From positions 1 to 20,036 of IMG/VR virus record IMGVR_UViG_3300047481_000202: a stretch of 20,036 nt of DNA; one strand, written 5' to 3'. The notes below the pieces were generated by a model. That model made no database searches, had not been told where the DNA came from, and worked only from the letters and a program-made list of their open reading frames with translations. Numbering within the stretch: position 1 is the stretch's first letter; every line of letters begins with the position of its first letter. The position numbers and the translations under genes are program-made. Shown piece after piece: positions 10,706 to 16,855 of the stretch. The stretch is from a virus.

Positions 10706-11137
10706 CTACGGACTCTGAGCCAAATTAGCTACTTGCGTCCGATACTTCACCACGAAGTCGCAGGAGATCACGCCAGATGGCTGGTCGGCCTCCTGCAGAT
10801 CAAAGCTAACTCCAGTCGGTTGTACGTCATAGGCAAAGCCGTTACAGGTCAGGTCCGCCATGATCTTGGCGTGCAGTGATTCGACAATCGGATCTGCAAC
10901 CTGATCAGGAATATCTCCCCGAACGATCACCGCAACTCGCACCGTCAACGTCCAGTCGAGCGTCGGCGCACTGGTCAGCTGCACGCAGACATCGTTGATC
11001 GGCTCGACCACCAGTGCAGGCAGCTCGCCCCGTGCAAGCGGCTCCACCCTGCTGCGGTAGATCCGCGTGCTGACCCCAGTGGTGCCGGTCAGATTGCTGC
11101 GGATCCTGGCCAGGATCGACTCACGGCGCGTTGTCAT
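10706..11137 (-). CDS. U: Tail terminator protein, lambda gpU-like
   Basis: 143 residues (lambda gpU 131). Contains RRESILARIRSNLTG near the start, TRIYRSRVEPLARGELPALV, a beta strand run with LDWTLTVRVAVIVRG, then DQVADPIVESLHAKIMADL, and a final strand VISCDFVVKYRT. The order helix, YRSR-P-ARGELPA, paired strands, ADP-helix is that of minor tail protein U / tail terminators. It should form a hexameric ring capping the finished tail and offering the head-joining surface. AGGTGG lies about seven bases before the ATG; the start overlaps the upstream gene by 4 nt. The position directly before the tail-tube region fits. Confidence 0.87.
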   Translation of the reverse strand: MTTRRESILARIRSNLTGTTGVSTRIYRSRVEPLARGELPALVVEPINDVCVQLTSAPTLDWTLTVRVAVIVRGDIPDQVADPIVESLHAKIMADLTCNGFAYDVQPTGVSFDLQEADQPSGVISCDFVVKYRTQVANLAQSP

Positions 11138-11775
11138 GCGGATGCCACCTGAACCACTGTGCAGATGATGCCAGGGATGCTGGGGCGCGCGAACGGGCTA
11201 CTGGCTGCAGCCTCGGCATGGATGTAGGCCGCAACGTTGCTGGTTGCCCAGATCAGCTCGATGTAGTCACCAGCCACCAGACCCAACACAAAGTTCACCG
11301 TGCCGATCACATTGCCATCGATGCCGCCATGGCTGCTGATGATGCTGAACTTGCTGTCGCTGGCCGGCACATCGCCAGCGCTGCCATCGTTGTTCTTGCG
11401 CAGCCAGACGTTGATGTCATGAATCTGCGTGTCGGTATTGCTGAACTGGATCGAGAAGGTGATGCTGTAGATCCCCGGATGATCAACCGTCATGCGGCTA
11501 TCGGAGATAAGCCTCACGCCACGGTTCGCCAAATCCATCTGGCGCAGGTTGATGGAATAGGGCGTGTTAATCGCCGCGGCCACCTGCGAAGTGGTATCCC
11601 AGAACGATCCCCAATAGCCAGGGCAACCGTGATACGGCAACTTATTCCAAGCCGTCAGGCCATCACCGATCTTCAGGTTGTCGGTCTCCTTCTCGACGCC
11701 AGGTTCTCCTGCCATCAGCACTGGGTTTAGCGCTGACCACTGGCTGCGGGTGTTGACCTTAAAGGGACCGCTCAT
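11134..11775 (-). CDS. Virion protein with adhesin-type N-terminus and C1q-like C-terminus
   Basis: 213 residues. The N-terminal ~50 residues (GEPGVEKETDNLKIGDGLTA, then WNKLPYHG) match the short repeat at the start of many phage fibre and tropism proteins (Mtd-N / hyaluronate-lyase type, NLKIGDG-T-WN-LPY). Residues about 70-213 form a beta-rich unit with HPGIYSITFSIQF, DINVWLRKNNDG, GLVAGDYIELIWATSN and a closing PSIPGIICTVVQV, the pattern of a trimeric C1q/TNF-like jelly roll, which I associate with cyanophage structural proteins. It lies between the FII-like and U-like genes, overlapping both by 4 nt, where lambda has gpZ. It could be a head, collar or neck fibre, or a decoration protein binding host surface sugars. 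No gpZ candidate is seen elsewhere. The role is inferred. Confidence 0.75.
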   Translation of the reverse strand: MSGPFKVNTRSQWSALNPVLMAGEPGVEKETDNLKIGDGLTAWNKLPYHGCPGYWGSFWDTTSQVAAAINTPYSINLRQMDLANRGVRLISDSRMTVDHPGIYSITFSIQFSNTDTQIHDINVWLRKNNDGSAGDVPASDSKFSIISSHGGIDGNVIGTVNFVLGLVAGDYIELIWATSNVAAYIHAEAAASSPFARPSIPGIICTVVQVASA

Positions 11776-12052: not shown

Positions 12053-12433
12053 TCAGCCGTACTTCGCAGAAGCCAGACCGAGCACAGCCACAGCACCGGC
12101 GCCGGTGCCGCCAGCCACCGTCACAGAGACCTTCACATAGCGCTTCAGGGAAGTCACGTTGACGAAGATCTTCTGCAGCGAGGCAGTGTTGGCAGAGGTG
12201 GTGGTGAAGGCGCCACCAGTCACGTCGGTATAAGTACCGCCGGAGGTGTCGGATTCGGTCAGCTTGACGGCGTAGGTGATGCTGGCACCACCGGCTTCGG
12301 CGTCCAGAAGGACAGCCATGTCGCCTTCGTAGCCCTGCAGATCGATGGCAGAGCCGGTCCCGGTGGCGGTCACAACGTCGTTGCGCAGCAGGCCGAGGAC
12401 CGTGGTCTTAGAACCAAGGTTGTGGATGGTCAT
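12053..12433 (-). CDS. Small beta-rich head protein, possible capsid decoration
   Basis: 126 residues, Thr/Ser/Gly/Ala-rich and beta-rich: SAIDLQGYEGDMAVLLDAE, ITYAVKLTESDTSGGTYTDV, GGAFTTTSANTASLQKIFVN and KRYVKVSVTVAGG. Proteins of this look are frequent, mostly unnamed, just after major capsid genes of tailed phages; a single Ig/jelly-roll-like domain on the capsid surface or near the connector is plausible. A strong GGAGGG site lies seven bases before the ATG, the best in this region, so high expression is expected, which fits a decoration protein. The start overlaps the 68-residue gene by 4 nt (ATGA). It occupies roughly the D/FI interval of lambda. Function is inferred, not recognised. 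Confidence 0.7.
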   Translation of the reverse strand: MTIHNLGSKTTVLGLLRNDVVTATGTGSAIDLQGYEGDMAVLLDAEAGGASITYAVKLTESDTSGGTYTDVTGGAFTTTSANTASLQKIFVNVTSLKRYVKVSVTVAGGTGAGAVAVLGLASAKYG

Positions 12434-12638: not shown

Positions 12639-15269
12639 TCAGAGGGTGTCGTTGCCGCGGCTGAACGATTCGGGATGACGGATTGCGATGTCGCAGTCCT
12701 GCATCGCCACAACGCGAACGGTGCCGCTGGTGCTGTGGGTGTAGGGGTCCACCATCAGATCCAGGCCGGAGAAGTAGCCGATGATCAGGTCAGCGAAGTT
12801 GCCGAACCACAGATCGCCAGAGGCAACTTGGTTGGACAGCACACCGCGGTAGCCGTTCACTTCACCGTTTTCCATGATGAAGATGCCGGAGCCGGCGTCC
12901 TTCTTCGTGGTCTTCAGGTTGCCGCGCATGGCAGCGTTCATCAGATACACGGGGGAACCGAGCAGAGCGTTGGCGGTAGCCACATCGCTTTCCAGGTCCA
13001 CCACCTCAGCGAAGGTAGGAGCAGCAGCGGCGAAGTCGACGGTGCCGATGCCGGTGGTGTTCTTCAGACCCAGGGGCTCATTGCTGGCACCAGTGCCGTA
13101 CAGACCAGCAGCATCGATCTTGAGAGCGATCACGCGAGCCAGGTCATTGCGCACCATGTTCTCCACGTCGATGGAGGACTGGATCATCAGGCGACGGCTG
13201 AAGTCGGTGTAGGCAGCCACGGTGCGGGGCACCAGGCTCACCTGATCGACGGTCTGCTGGCTCTCGGTGGGGGAGCCGGACTCGGCCACCCAGTAGGCGG
13301 TAGCAGCGCCGGACTGGCGGGGAATAGCCACGTTGCCGGTCAGGCCGGTCAGCACGGTGGCGCCAGCCTGATCCAGAGCCGAAGCGTTGCGCAGCAGGTC
13401 GATGAAGGAGCCAGCATCCAGCTCGGTAGCAACCAGGTTGCCGCCGGCAGAAGCGGTGCCCACGTTCAGGTCACGGCGCAGCACGTCCTGGGGCACGGTG
13501 ATGCCACGGGACTGGCGACCGAGCTTGGCAGCAGCAGCTTCGGAGGCCTCGATCTCGAACGCAGCAGCCTCACGGGCGGAGCGGTCGGTCGGGTTGGAGA
13601 GATAGTTGATGGCACGCAGGAAGGAGAAGCTGCGGCTCTCCTTCTCGCTAAGGCCGATTTCAGCGGCGCTCATGTTGACGGGCTCCTGGGGGATGTTCAT
13701 TTTGTCCAGAACAGCAGCGCGAGCCTCGTCGATAGAACGACCAGATTCGATCAGCTGGCGGCCGAGATCGGCCATCCCGTGCTTGTCGCACAGGGCGGAA
13801 ATGTCAGAGATGCGGGAGCGTTCAGCCTCAGCGGCTTCAGCCCGCACCACTGCCAGATCAGGGGTGGTGTTTTCCATTAGAGGAAGGGGATCGGGTGTTG
13901 GTGCTGCCGAAGCAGCGTCATCAGTGGGCTCCAGCGATCGGCCGATGCCCACAGTTTTGTCCGCCGGTACAGAGACCACAGAGATCTCATACGGGGACCA
14001 GGCAGTAGCAACGAAATCGCCACTGCCGCGCTCCTCCATTTTGTCGATGGAGTAGCCAAAGGAGACATTCCGAAGAATGCCATCCTTCACATCGCTCAAG
14101 ATTTCTTGGGCGAATGCGTTGCGGCTGAACCGCACACGCGCATAACCTCTCCGGCGTTTGCCATCGATGTATGCACGCTCCACCACTCCGATCACGCGAT
14201 CAGGGTTGTGGTTGAACAACAGCGGAGCACTGTCATTCAGGCGACTGAGATCAGCCGCCTTGGGCTCATGGCTCAGGATCTCGTTGCCGAAATACCGAGC
14301 CACTGGATACTCCGAGCTAAATGGAAACTCGAAGGTCCGATCCTCAATCGCTTCAACCTCGACAACCTCGCTCCGCTTGTACTTGCCCTCCATCGCCCGC
14401 AGCATCGGGATCTTCGTCAGCGTCGAGAACCGATGACCCACCAGAGTCTCGGTAGCTTCCCAGCCTTCATCGCCTTCGCTATAGATCCGAATCAGTGCCG
14501 CAGGATCCTCGGCGGTGGCTTCAATCGTGAAGTCGCTGTCGGGCACGTTCAAGCTGCCCTCACGCCGAACATCCACAATCCGGCCGCGAGCAATGCCGCC
14601 GCTCGAATCCCAACGCACAAAGTCACCCTCCTTCAACGCATCAGGCTCAGCACGCTCAGCCTCACCATCGCCAGTGGCTTCCTCGAACATGATCGGATCG
14701 AAGTCATGCTCAGACAACCACGCCCGCGCCTCGGCCGGCGTGTACTGCGAGCTACGGAACCGGATGGCCTGAATCTCGCTGGTGCCTTCCTTGATCCCGT
14801 AGATGAAGTCAATGCCTGAGCCGCCCGCATCGTTCTCTCGACGTAACGAGTCGTACTGCTCGGGATCTGTCAGCCGAGCAGCATGTTCGTTCGGATAGGG
14901 GCGCTCTGATTCCACCGCGCTTCTGTCTTGTAATGCCTTGATTCTATCGGCCTTCGATGTAGCCCAATTCTGCCCTGCATCTCCACCCCACGCTGCCCAT
15001 GCCACGCGGCCTGGTGACGGATAGCCATCCTCTCCTGGATTGAATCCTTCGCCCTGCTTGTCCACCTCATGCCGAGCGAACCACGCCGACATCGTGATCA
15101 CCGTGTCGGCGCTCAACTCGTCACCGCTCAAGATCTGCCCAGCTCTGGTCGCCGCCACCTCGGTGCCACCTGCATTGCCTTCAGCTTTCCAATCCCGATA
15201 GCGCTGCGCCTCCTCCCTCATGCCTTCAGTCGGCATCAGGTCCACCTCGGTGCCAGCGATATTTGCCAT
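12639..15269 (-). CDS. Fusion of accessory head modules, HK97-type prohead protease and major capsid protein
   Basis: 876 residues in one uninterrupted frame. (1) About 15-105: REEAQRYRDWKAEGNAGGTE, RHEVDKQGEGFNPGEDG and GRVAWAAWGGDAGQNWA, a module I know from phage head-maturation proteins. (2) About 153-200: IQAIRFRSSQYTPAEARAWL. (3) About 208-285: EGDFVRWDSSGGIARGRIVD to LVGHRFSTLTKI, a small SH3/Tudor-like barrel. (4) About 300-445: S78-type prohead protease, with His354 in LFNHNPDRVIG, Ser403 in RNVSFGYSI and Glu428 in WSPYEISVVSVPAD. (5) About 465-585: helical delta/scaffold-like region. (6) About 588-876: HK97-fold major capsid protein with NLVATELDAGSFIDLLRN, AIPRQSGAATAYWVAESG, YGTGASNEPLGL and FADLIIGYFSGLDLMVDPYT. 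The protease must cut itself from the capsid part during maturation. GGGAG precedes the ATG by about seven bases. No internal ribosome site is seen at Met465. Confidence 0.93.
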   Translation of the reverse strand: MANIAGTEVDLMPTEGMREEAQRYRDWKAEGNAGGTEVAATRAGQILSGDELSADTVITMSAWFARHEVDKQGEGFNPGEDGYPSPGRVAWAAWGGDAGQNWATSKADRIKALQDRSAVESERPYPNEHAARLTDPEQYDSLRRENDAGGSGIDFIYGIKEGTSEIQAIRFRSSQYTPAEARAWLSEHDFDPIMFEEATGDGEAERAEPDALKEGDFVRWDSSGGIARGRIVDVRREGSLNVPDSDFTIEATAEDPAALIRIYSEGDEGWEATETLVGHRFSTLTKIPMLRAMEGKYKRSEVVEVEAIEDRTFEFPFSSEYPVARYFGNEILSHEPKAADLSRLNDSAPLLFNHNPDRVIGVVERAYIDGKRRRGYARVRFSRNAFAQEILSDVKDGILRNVSFGYSIDKMEERGSGDFVATAWSPYEISVVSVPADKTVGIGRSLEPTDDAASAAPTPDPLPLMENTTPDLAVVRAEAAEAERSRISDISALCDKHGMADLGRQLIESGRSIDEARAAVLDKMNIPQEPVNMSAAEIGLSEKESRSFSFLRAINYLSNPTDRSAREAAAFEIEASEAAAAKLGRQSRGITVPQDVLRRDLNVGTASAGGNLVATELDAGSFIDLLRNASALDQAGATVLTGLTGNVAIPRQSGAATAYWVAESGSPTESQQTVDQVSLVPRTVAAYTDFSRRLMIQSSIDVENMVRNDLARVIALKIDAAGLYGTGASNEPLGLKNTTGIGTVDFAAAAPTFAEVVDLESDVATANALLGSPVYLMNAAMRGNLKTTKKDAGSGIFIMENGEVNGYRGVLSNQVASGDLWFGNFADLIIGYFSGLDLMVDPYTHSTSGTVRVVAMQDCDIAIRHPESFSRGNDTL

Positions 15270-16855
15270 CAGTCTCCCTGCAGTTGCTCGCTCAGATCTT
15301 CAGTCCCGACTTCCTCGGGGTACTCCTCCTCCCCCTCGATCACCGGCTCGGTCTCCTCGAACGGCGCCTCGGTGCCCATCGGCCGCGCAGCCTGCACCGC
15401 ACCGCCTTCCGTCACCTCGCTCGGGTCGGTGTCCGTCACGATGTGCAGCTCATCGAGCATCGCCAGTTCGCTCTGACGCATCAGCAGCACATCATCCAGA
15501 TCACCGCCCTGCTCCGCGATCACCTGCGCCAGCGTCTTGAAGCCGCACCGCACCGCGGTCTTGTAGGCATCCACCTCCTTCTGCGGATCCACCCACTCCC
15601 AGCTCCGCGGCACCCACTTGCTAGCGCGATAGCGGTCAGGGTTGGACTCATAGCCAGGCAGGCTCAACGCACCGCTCAGCACCGCCATATCCAGCCAGGC
15701 CTCGAAGATCGGCTGGTGGAAGTTCTCGATCATGTACCGCTGCAGCACGCGGTACGCATCACGCTCCTCCAGCAGACTCAGCCGGCTGCTGCTGTAGTTG
15801 CTCTCGGAGAAGTTCTTGCTGATGCTCTCGAAGCTCACGCCCAAACCTGCAGCCACAGCGCGCAGCATCGATCGGGTGAATGGCTCCAGCTGGCCGTCGG
15901 GTGCGTTCATGTCCGGCACCGTCACGCTCTGGCCTGGATCCAGGTACTTGAACACCCCAGGCTGGAACTCGCTTACGCGCTCGCCTTCGTAGATCTCATC
16001 CGCAGTCAGCTCACCCTCGGGACTGGTGATGAATCCCATCAACGCACTGCTCGCCCGAGCACGCACCAGCTCGGCCTCCTCATAGCCCTGCAGCATGTGC
16101 AGCCGCATCAACGCTGAGGCGAACCAAGTCACGCCTCTGGTCTGCCCAGGCCGCTCAGGGATGAACAGATGGATCACCTCATCAGCAGGCACCCGGATCC
16201 GACGGCCAGTGGTCCGCGCATTGCCGGCATAGGTATCGCCCGGATGGTTTGCATAGAAGTGGTACGCCTGCGGCCGCAGGTACTGATCCACCTCGATGCC
16301 CATCCGCACCGTGTTGCCATCCTTCGCCTGCGGCACATCGTCATCGATCAGATAGTCCGCCTCCAACACCTGCAGCGCGAACGGCACTTTCGAGTCGCCG
16401 AATGGCCGGCGGATCATCCTGATGAACACCTCGCCAGACTCAGCCAGGCTGCGCACCACCAAGCGCTCAATATCGTGGAAACCCAGTAGCCCGCTGACAT
16501 CGCAGCGGTACTTGTTCATCCACTTCTCGAACGCCTCATGGATCTGGGCGTTCATCGCCTCATCCAGCTTTCCGCCGCGCAGCATCCGCACCTGACCCTG
16601 GTGCCGGATGCCGTGGCCGATCACGTTGTTCTGGATGGCGCGCAGTGCTTGCCGCGCATAGTCCGAGTCGCGGCACAGCTGCCGCGCACGGTTACGCAGT
16701 GCCTTGAAGCTCGACTTGACCTCACTATCGGCGCTGGTGCCACTGGTTACCCAGTCGCTAGTCAGCCTGCTAACCCGCGCGCCCATATACGCACGCTGCC
16801 GCGGCCGTACTGGCTCGAATCCCATCGCCTTGAACAGCCGGGTGCGCAGTCCCAT
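15269..16855 (-). CDS. B: Portal protein, lambda gpB family
   Basis: 528 residues, against 533 in lambda gpB. Early helical segment FKALRNRARQLCRDSDYARQ followed by AIQNNVIGHGI, then DIERLVVRSLAESGEVFIRM, VLEADYLIDDD, VIHLFIPERPGQTRGVTWFA and SFESISKNFSESNYSSSRLS, all typical of lambda-family portals. The C-terminus is acidic (EETEPVIEGEEEYPEEVGTE), probably exposed inside the procapsid. Twelve copies form the portal ring at one vertex: entry channel for packaged DNA, docking site for terminase and later for the head-tail joiners. GAGG lies five bases before the ATG; the start overlaps the gpW-like stop by one base (TGATG), as does its own stop with the next gene. Confidence 0.96.
   Translation of the reverse strand: MGLRTRLFKAMGFEPVRPRQRAYMGARVSRLTSDWVTSGTSADSEVKSSFKALRNRARQLCRDSDYARQALRAIQNNVIGHGIRHQGQVRMLRGGKLDEAMNAQIHEAFEKWMNKYRCDVSGLLGFHDIERLVVRSLAESGEVFIRMIRRPFGDSKVPFALQVLEADYLIDDDVPQAKDGNTVRMGIEVDQYLRPQAYHFYANHPGDTYAGNARTTGRRIRVPADEVIHLFIPERPGQTRGVTWFASALMRLHMLQGYEEAELVRARASSALMGFITSPEGELTADEIYEGERVSEFQPGVFKYLDPGQSVTVPDMNAPDGQLEPFTRSMLRAVAAGLGVSFESISKNFSESNYSSSRLSLLEERDAYRVLQRYMIENFHQPIFEAWLDMAVLSGALSLPGYESNPDRYRASKWVPRSWEWVDPQKEVDAYKTAVRCGFKTLAQVIAEQGGDLDDVLLMRQSELAMLDELHIVTDTDPSEVTEGGAVQAARPMGTEAPFEETEPVIEGEEEYPEEVGTEDLSEQLQGD

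Follow-up and report, generated by a model that had tools for sequence, protein, structure and literature searches.

A single long frame joins a prohead protease to a major capsid protein

The window analyzed here is the whole 20,036-nucleotide stretch of IMG/VR virus record IMGVR_UViG_3300047481_000202 (positions 1 to 20,036), a 20-kb piece of a lambda-like tailed phage from a cyanophage-like virus, in which the genes for terminase GpA and portal are followed by an 876-amino acid open reading frame (ORF), head-tail genes, and tail genes. The ORF (12639..15269) encodes N-terminal modules, an S78 prohead protease, a delta domain, and an HK97-fold capsid protein. It is uninterrupted on the minus strand, from an ATG at 15269 to a stop at 12639; stops are present on the plus strand across 12639-15269, which is not open. 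The start codon overlaps the lambda-type portal gene at its 3' end and is preceded by GGGAG at about 15274-15278, a good ribosome site with an anti-Shine-Dalgarno (anti-SD) energy of -6.8 kcal/mol. A 213-amino acid protein encoded at 11134-11775 (minus strand) matches the Pfam domain Mtd_N (Major tropism determinant, N-terminal; 3e-6), and genes annotated as mtd occur in the matching region of S-CBS1 and S-CBS3.

The single 876-residue frame of the original prediction is present and intact, but lies on the minus strand. It is conserved at full length: dozens of independent IMG/VR contigs carry relatives with 82-95% identity, and the fused gene is also carried by the isolated Synechococcus phages S-CBS1 and S-CBS3 and the Roseobacter phages CRP-811 and CRP-831. 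Hundreds of relatives have a head-maturation protease and a capsid protein in one long frame, and protease, delta, and capsid share a single frame in nearly all of the approximately 280 complete relatives. A frame error in the assembly, which the original prediction had itself named as a way in which it could fail, is excluded because full-length relatives recur in dozens of contigs and in isolates. The chance that a sequencing or assembly artefact fused two genes is negligible, since full-length homologues from dozens of independent contigs, and from several isolates as well, refute it; nothing in the window suggests such an event, and what could be cited for it are single-base breaks in a handful of relatives, CRP-823 among them. 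The fusion ORF is broken in L090 (CRP-823), L150, L269, and L080 by isolated single indels or stops, which are probably sequencing errors. We rejected the split gene of CRP-823 as a natural two-gene form, as it results from one extra nucleotide in an A/T run, relative to CRP-821.

Protease, delta, and capsid domains

The S78 protease domain occupies residues 309-445 (13935..14345, minus strand). Pfam PF04586 matched residues 336-443 (E 1e-9, 39.1 bits against a cutoff of 21), and the equivalog TIGR01543 scored 37.8 bits, below its cutoff of 59. The catalytic residues His354, Ser403, and Glu428, judged intact in the original prediction, do not vary in an alignment of 38 relatives. The protease is followed by a helical delta (scaffold) domain at residues 465-608 (13446..13877, minus strand), and then by the mature capsid protein at residues 609-876 (268 amino acids; 12642..13445, minus strand), with cleavage predicted at or just before residue 609. 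The capsid part matched Pfam Phage_capsid PF05065 over residues 609-871 (E 4e-46), and Foldseek matches to 8gta (1e-16) and HK97 (about 1e-8) identified an HK97 fold. Spanning both enzymatic and structural parts, phrog_617 ("major head protein") covers residues 296-875 (E 4e-175) and corresponds to the PHROG 617 protease-capsid fusion; the NCBIfam model NF045541, "prohead protease/major capsid protein fusion protein", scored 183 bits, far under its cutoff of 525. These matches confirm that protease and capsid share one frame, and the fusion is conserved in relatives. Its novelty had been overstated, because protease-capsid fusions form an existing family (PHROG 617, NF045541, R4C); the PHROG 617 and NF045541 listings describe no N-terminal modules and no internal start.

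In structure, the closest relative is the Dinoroseobacter phage R4C capsid, which contains 415 copies of the major capsid protein (PMC10276861, PDB 8GTA). R4C gene product vBDshSR4C_006 (629 amino acids) and that of Rhodobacter phage RcCronus (619 amino acids) are the same protease-delta-capsid ORF, although, unlike the window ORF, they have no N-terminal modules. The deposited R4C chain is the last 268 residues of the 629-amino acid gene product, shares about 40% identity with the capsid part of the window ORF, and aligns from residue 609. The start of the 8GTA chain may be either the cleavage point or the edge of visible density; a text search of the R4C paper (PMC10276861) found no mention of protease or cleavage. 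Removal of the upstream part and a mature N terminus at or just before 609 are nevertheless supported, because the R4C chain starts there. By this comparison, the residues upstream of about 609 are probably lost at maturation, in agreement with the release originally proposed.

Optional N-terminal modules

Three optional modules, all on the minus strand, precede the protease: M1, residues 9-108 (14946..15245), is helical and phrog_2859-like; M2, residues 119-200 (14670..14915), is alpha/beta and contains the motif PYPNEHAARL; and M3, residues 208-288 (14406..14648), is beta and may be Hva1_TUDOR-like. These boundaries refine earlier ones, placed roughly correctly at about 15-105, 153-200, and 208-285. 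AlphaFold modeled the three as confident, separate domains of these same fold classes. Against Hva1_TUDOR, M3 scored 26.8 bits when scanned alone and 22.1 bits within the whole protein (cutoff 24.1). A PDB fold search with the N-terminal modules gave no significant match, only weak Tudor/KOW-like ones, and structural matches among viral proteins were to prohead proteases, XkdF, and portals.

A survey with hidden Markov models (HMMs) for four modules (M1-M4) over about 340 loci revealed a constant protease-delta-capsid core behind at least 13 different arrangements. The most frequent were M1-M3 (59 loci), M1-M2-M3 (57), no module (45), and M1-M2 (29), followed by M1 (20), M2-M3 (19), M1-M4 (18), and M4 (13); rarer ones include M1-M2-M4 and the permuted order M1-M3-M2. 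On a tree built from 113 core sequences, each module changed 8-21 times, and the nearest relative of the window, L051, with a 98% identical core, lacks M1. Outside this family, unrelated phages and haloarchaeal viruses carry M1 on separately encoded prohead proteases and on portals or minor head proteins, and M2 occurs before ClpP-like and XkdF-like proteases and after an S78 protease on bacterial and archaeal contigs, these protease classes having been read off the sequence by eye rather than by profile scan. The modules shuffle freely, and unrelated prohead proteases and portals carry them too. Since they are optional and are found on proteases, portals, and minor head proteins, we conclude that they are optional accessories of the head interior, for which an internal-scaffold or cargo role is plausible.

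Other N-terminal additions were also seen. In Roseobacter-type relatives there is a further, different module of about 130 amino acids (..FATGIKKNNNEVWRLGGNIRGNEAYEFWTKARDG..), located within residues 1-186 of the L342 ORF. In L067, a Cys-rich module (CSNCAFYAGPRACELVEGDIDPAGICKLW), which we take to resemble high-potential iron-sulfur protein (HiPIP), is inserted between M2 and the protease; in Actinomycetia phage DSL-LC01, a gene annotated as HiPIP adjoins the capsid maturation proteases.

A conserved, probable start codon at the protease/delta junction

The original prediction held that the frame contains no internal start and that protease and capsid would be made 1:1. Comparison of the junction across homologues argues otherwise. 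Met465 (13875..13877, minus strand), at the protease/delta boundary, is a proposed internal start codon for a nested gene (12639..13877, minus strand) encoding a 412-amino acid delta-capsid precursor, residues 465-876. The junction codon is ATG in 321 of 330 homologues and GTG, in the same alignment column, in the other nine, although the surrounding linker is variable in sequence and residues 448-470 are predicted to be disordered. An anti-SD energy of -6 kcal/mol or lower was found at 54% of junction ATGs, whereas the proportion was 6% for in-frame ATGs elsewhere and 7% for those out of frame (p 6e-11). In the clade defined by its SD, 43 of 53 junctions reach this value against 14.8 expected after synonymous shuffling, a comparison that is descriptive, as the clade was delimited by the very feature being scored. 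Relatives with the SD mostly infect proteobacteria; examples are AAAAGGAGGTCAAAATG (L323), TAAGGAGAACACTATG (CRP-811), AAAGGAGTGATCCCATG (CRP-831), and CGGAGGACGCAATG (R4C), and the SD is also present in RcCronus, phiHAP-1, and E. coli phage Bas97. The junction Met is residue 189 in R4C and residue 217 in Bas97. Distant isolates of other lineages have ATG at the junction, with an SD in most. No SD precedes Met465 in the window (anti-SD energy +0.3) or in cyanophages generally. An efficient start near Met465, which the original prediction had recognized as incompatible with its proposal, is indicated by the comparative evidence.

Other candidate starts were considered. GTG218, with an AAGGAGG-like upstream sequence, was rejected as the upstream codons are not conserved, and a TAATG stop/start overlap in another frame of the window (ORF 13877-14083) is not conserved in relatives. 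Around Met533 (13671-13690), in the delta domain, AGGAG and ATG are kept in nearly all 38 members of the window's clade, and this codon could possibly serve as a second, minor internal start. As the main start it was rejected, being clade-specific (7 of 42 in other lineages) and with the codon step described below falling at 465 instead.

A hairpin and an unstructured leader precede the proposed start in cyanophages

In the window, codons 452-456 can form an RNA hairpin, GCUGC-UUCG-GCAGC (13903..13916, minus strand), that ends 25 nt before the internal ATG, and the intervening C/A-rich leader (13878..13902, minus strand), within the disordered linker at residues 448-470, is unstructured. The hairpin codons hardly vary among the 38 sequences of the window's clade. 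A four-base loop closed by a perfect 5-bp stem occurs in 93 of 94 distinct cyanophage junctions, versus 36% after synonymous shuffling; the distance from its end to the start codon is 25 or 28 nt in 92 junctions and 22 nt in the remaining one. All stem pairs are kept in 37 diverse sequences, in which the middle pair is G-C, U-A, or C-G; 12 cells are changed on both sides, and all cells pair. Stem covariation was 0.269 versus 0.108 in shuffles, and RNAalifold found the same stem unprompted. Because an Ala-Ala-x-Ala-Ala peptide by itself produces four of the five pairs, with no selection on the RNA, the covariation signal in the alignment rests mainly on one pair together with codon invariance. 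Rfam searches returned no known RNA family at the junction.

The start region is the least structured RNA of the ORF (mean -4.0 versus -14.1 kcal/mol per 50 nt) and falls within the lowest-structure 5% of the ORF in 29 of 30 cyanophage representatives. Synonymous diversity, computed on 38 non-redundant relatives from the window's clade, reaches its minimum for the ORF at codons 451-480, with 0.17-0.26 of expectation (mean 0.61, s.d. 0.15). Codons 445-451, just upstream of the hairpin, are not conserved, and we saw no conserved promoter-like stretch there.

These observations bear on how a separate precursor might arise. It could come from an internal promoter or from mRNA processing, with the hairpin perhaps stabilizing a 5' end: a hairpin of the stable UUCG type might act in processing or in protection of the mRNA, and the same start codon and the same codon step would be expected. 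We consider this route unlikely, as no conserved promoter is visible, given that codons 445-451 are unconserved, and as the SD in relatives that infect proteobacteria works at translation. Internal initiation on the long mRNA is instead the likely route to the precursor.

Codon usage steps up at Met465

Codon usage was scored within amino acids, with training on other sequences. Codon bias was higher downstream of the junction in all 83 of 83 representatives. The change point in cyanophages, the best over 400 codons, has an offset of 0 from the internal start (bootstrap 0 to 2); in the SD clade it lies at -1 or, under a second training scheme that leaves it broad, at +5 (interval -1 to 28). 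In the window's clade, residues 441-464 average -0.23 and residues 465-498 average +0.17, and in the window's own ORF the scores of the modules and protease resemble those of the terminase and portal genes, and the scores of the delta and capsid parts those of high-copy genes. Two genes past the capsid ORF, a gene for a 126-amino acid protein (phrog_5707; 12053-12433, minus strand) also has capsid-like codon usage (+0.13), in contrast to terminase and portal, and its product is a candidate high-copy decoration protein.

The step weighs against a polyprotein in which the 876-residue chain is the only product, so that every subunit is made with a protease and modules and about 608 residues are then removed. 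The ORF is open from end to end, public annotations give the full-length CDS alone, and Met465 in the window has no SD, all of which agree with such a polyprotein. A 1:1 product, however, gives no reason for a codon step at 465, so the step counts against it; it likewise fails to explain why the junction codon is always ATG or GTG although the linker is variable and disordered, and it does not account for the SDs of relatives, the hairpin, or the synonymous minimum. Extending from R4C, it would also place approximately 415 copies of a 608-residue part inside a T=7-sized procapsid. We regard this explanation as quite improbable, and the 1:1 stoichiometry of the original prediction is unsupported, the comparative signals pointing to a start at Met465. 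It is very probable that a separate capsid precursor beginning at Met465 is made by some route.

A proposed nested capsid gene and its closest known counterparts

We propose that initiation at 15269 would yield the 876-amino acid module-protease-delta-capsid fusion as the minor product, and initiation at Met465 (13877) an abundant 412-amino acid delta-capsid precursor, equivalent to HK97 gp5. The C-terminal delta-capsid part of the fusion would co-assemble with the short precursor, so that proteases and modules would enter the procapsid in limited number. The protease would then cut both products near 609, giving an identical 268-residue shell subunit and releasing the upstream part. Protease copies need not equal shell copies, contrary to what all database annotations imply, because ribosomes apparently also start mid-frame. 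The internal start would be driven by a Shine-Dalgarno sequence in the relatives with mostly proteobacterial hosts, and in the cyanophage clade that includes the window it would be tied to the hairpin 25-28 nt upstream and to the C/A-rich unstructured leader.

In lambda, a nested in-frame start within the protease gene C produces the scaffold Nu3. Similarly, an in-frame start inside the prohead protease gene of Mu (I/Z) and of Mu-like PaMx73 yields a second assembly protein (PMC4378225). An internal start of this type is indicated here indirectly, by comparative genomics. The nested product in Mu and lambda is a scaffold and the capsid gene is separate, whereas here it would be the capsid precursor with a built-in delta scaffold; a nested scaffold beside a separately encoded capsid was not found at this locus. 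The literature that we searched, which included few subscription journals, contained no earlier report of a nested protease-capsid start, save for the Mu-like protease/scaffold case. The protease-capsid fusion is already known, and a capsid precursor nested inside the protease ORF would be new in that literature.

In HK97, a protease gene (gp4) and a delta-capsid precursor gene (gp5) follow each other as two separate ORFs. In Faecalibacterium phage FP_Epona, too, the protease homologue (44% identity) and the capsid precursor have a gene each. The early region of that precursor matches residues 470-546 in the delta domain here (E 5e-8), and the boundary between the two genes reads stop, GGAGG, ATG where the window ORF reads through. 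FP_Epona, with two genes and an SD at this boundary, could be taken to mean that the codon step and hairpin are non-functional relics of an old fusion, in which the stop codon between two genes was lost. A relic would decay, whereas SD strength, start codon, and stem are kept though linkers have diverged, and double-sided changes preserve the stem; we find it highly improbable that these features have no function.

Closer to the window, the Synechococcus phages S-CBS1, S-CBS3, and S-LBS1 have the fused gene and gene order seen here, with the cyanophage hairpin at the junction; S-CBS1 and S-CBS3 have M1 and M2, and S-LBS1 has none of the three modules. At the same junction, R4C and RcCronus have an SD and ATG, and the window has the hairpin and leader instead. 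We favor, by a modest degree, a widespread, unannotated nested capsid gene shared by a large group of tailed phages, for which the cyanophage branch would use a hairpin-plus-leader cis element without a Shine-Dalgarno sequence.

Implications

In S-CBS1, S-CBS3, and S-LBS1 the fused gene is annotated as one capsid protein only. Many database "major capsid proteins" of 600-970 amino acids are probably mis-annotated in the same manner, with the real precursors beginning at an internal Met. The 1500-amino acid "major capsid protein" listed for ORF 030 of Prochlorococcus phage P-SS2 (PMC2784084) may be another long fusion. The N-terminal modules would constitute a portable kit, passed between genes for proteases, portals, and minor head proteins in viruses of bacteria and archaea.

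With a nested start, the apparent puzzle of a protease on every subunit becomes a testable mechanism for dosing the maturation protease, in which the fused copy would address protease to the procapsid and the nested start would supply the bulk subunit. For the study of how cyanobacteria initiate translation without an SD, the hairpin and C/A-rich leader of cyanophages provide a natural model and, if this proposal is true, would be a new cis-acting translation signal that helps to set the protease:capsid ratio.
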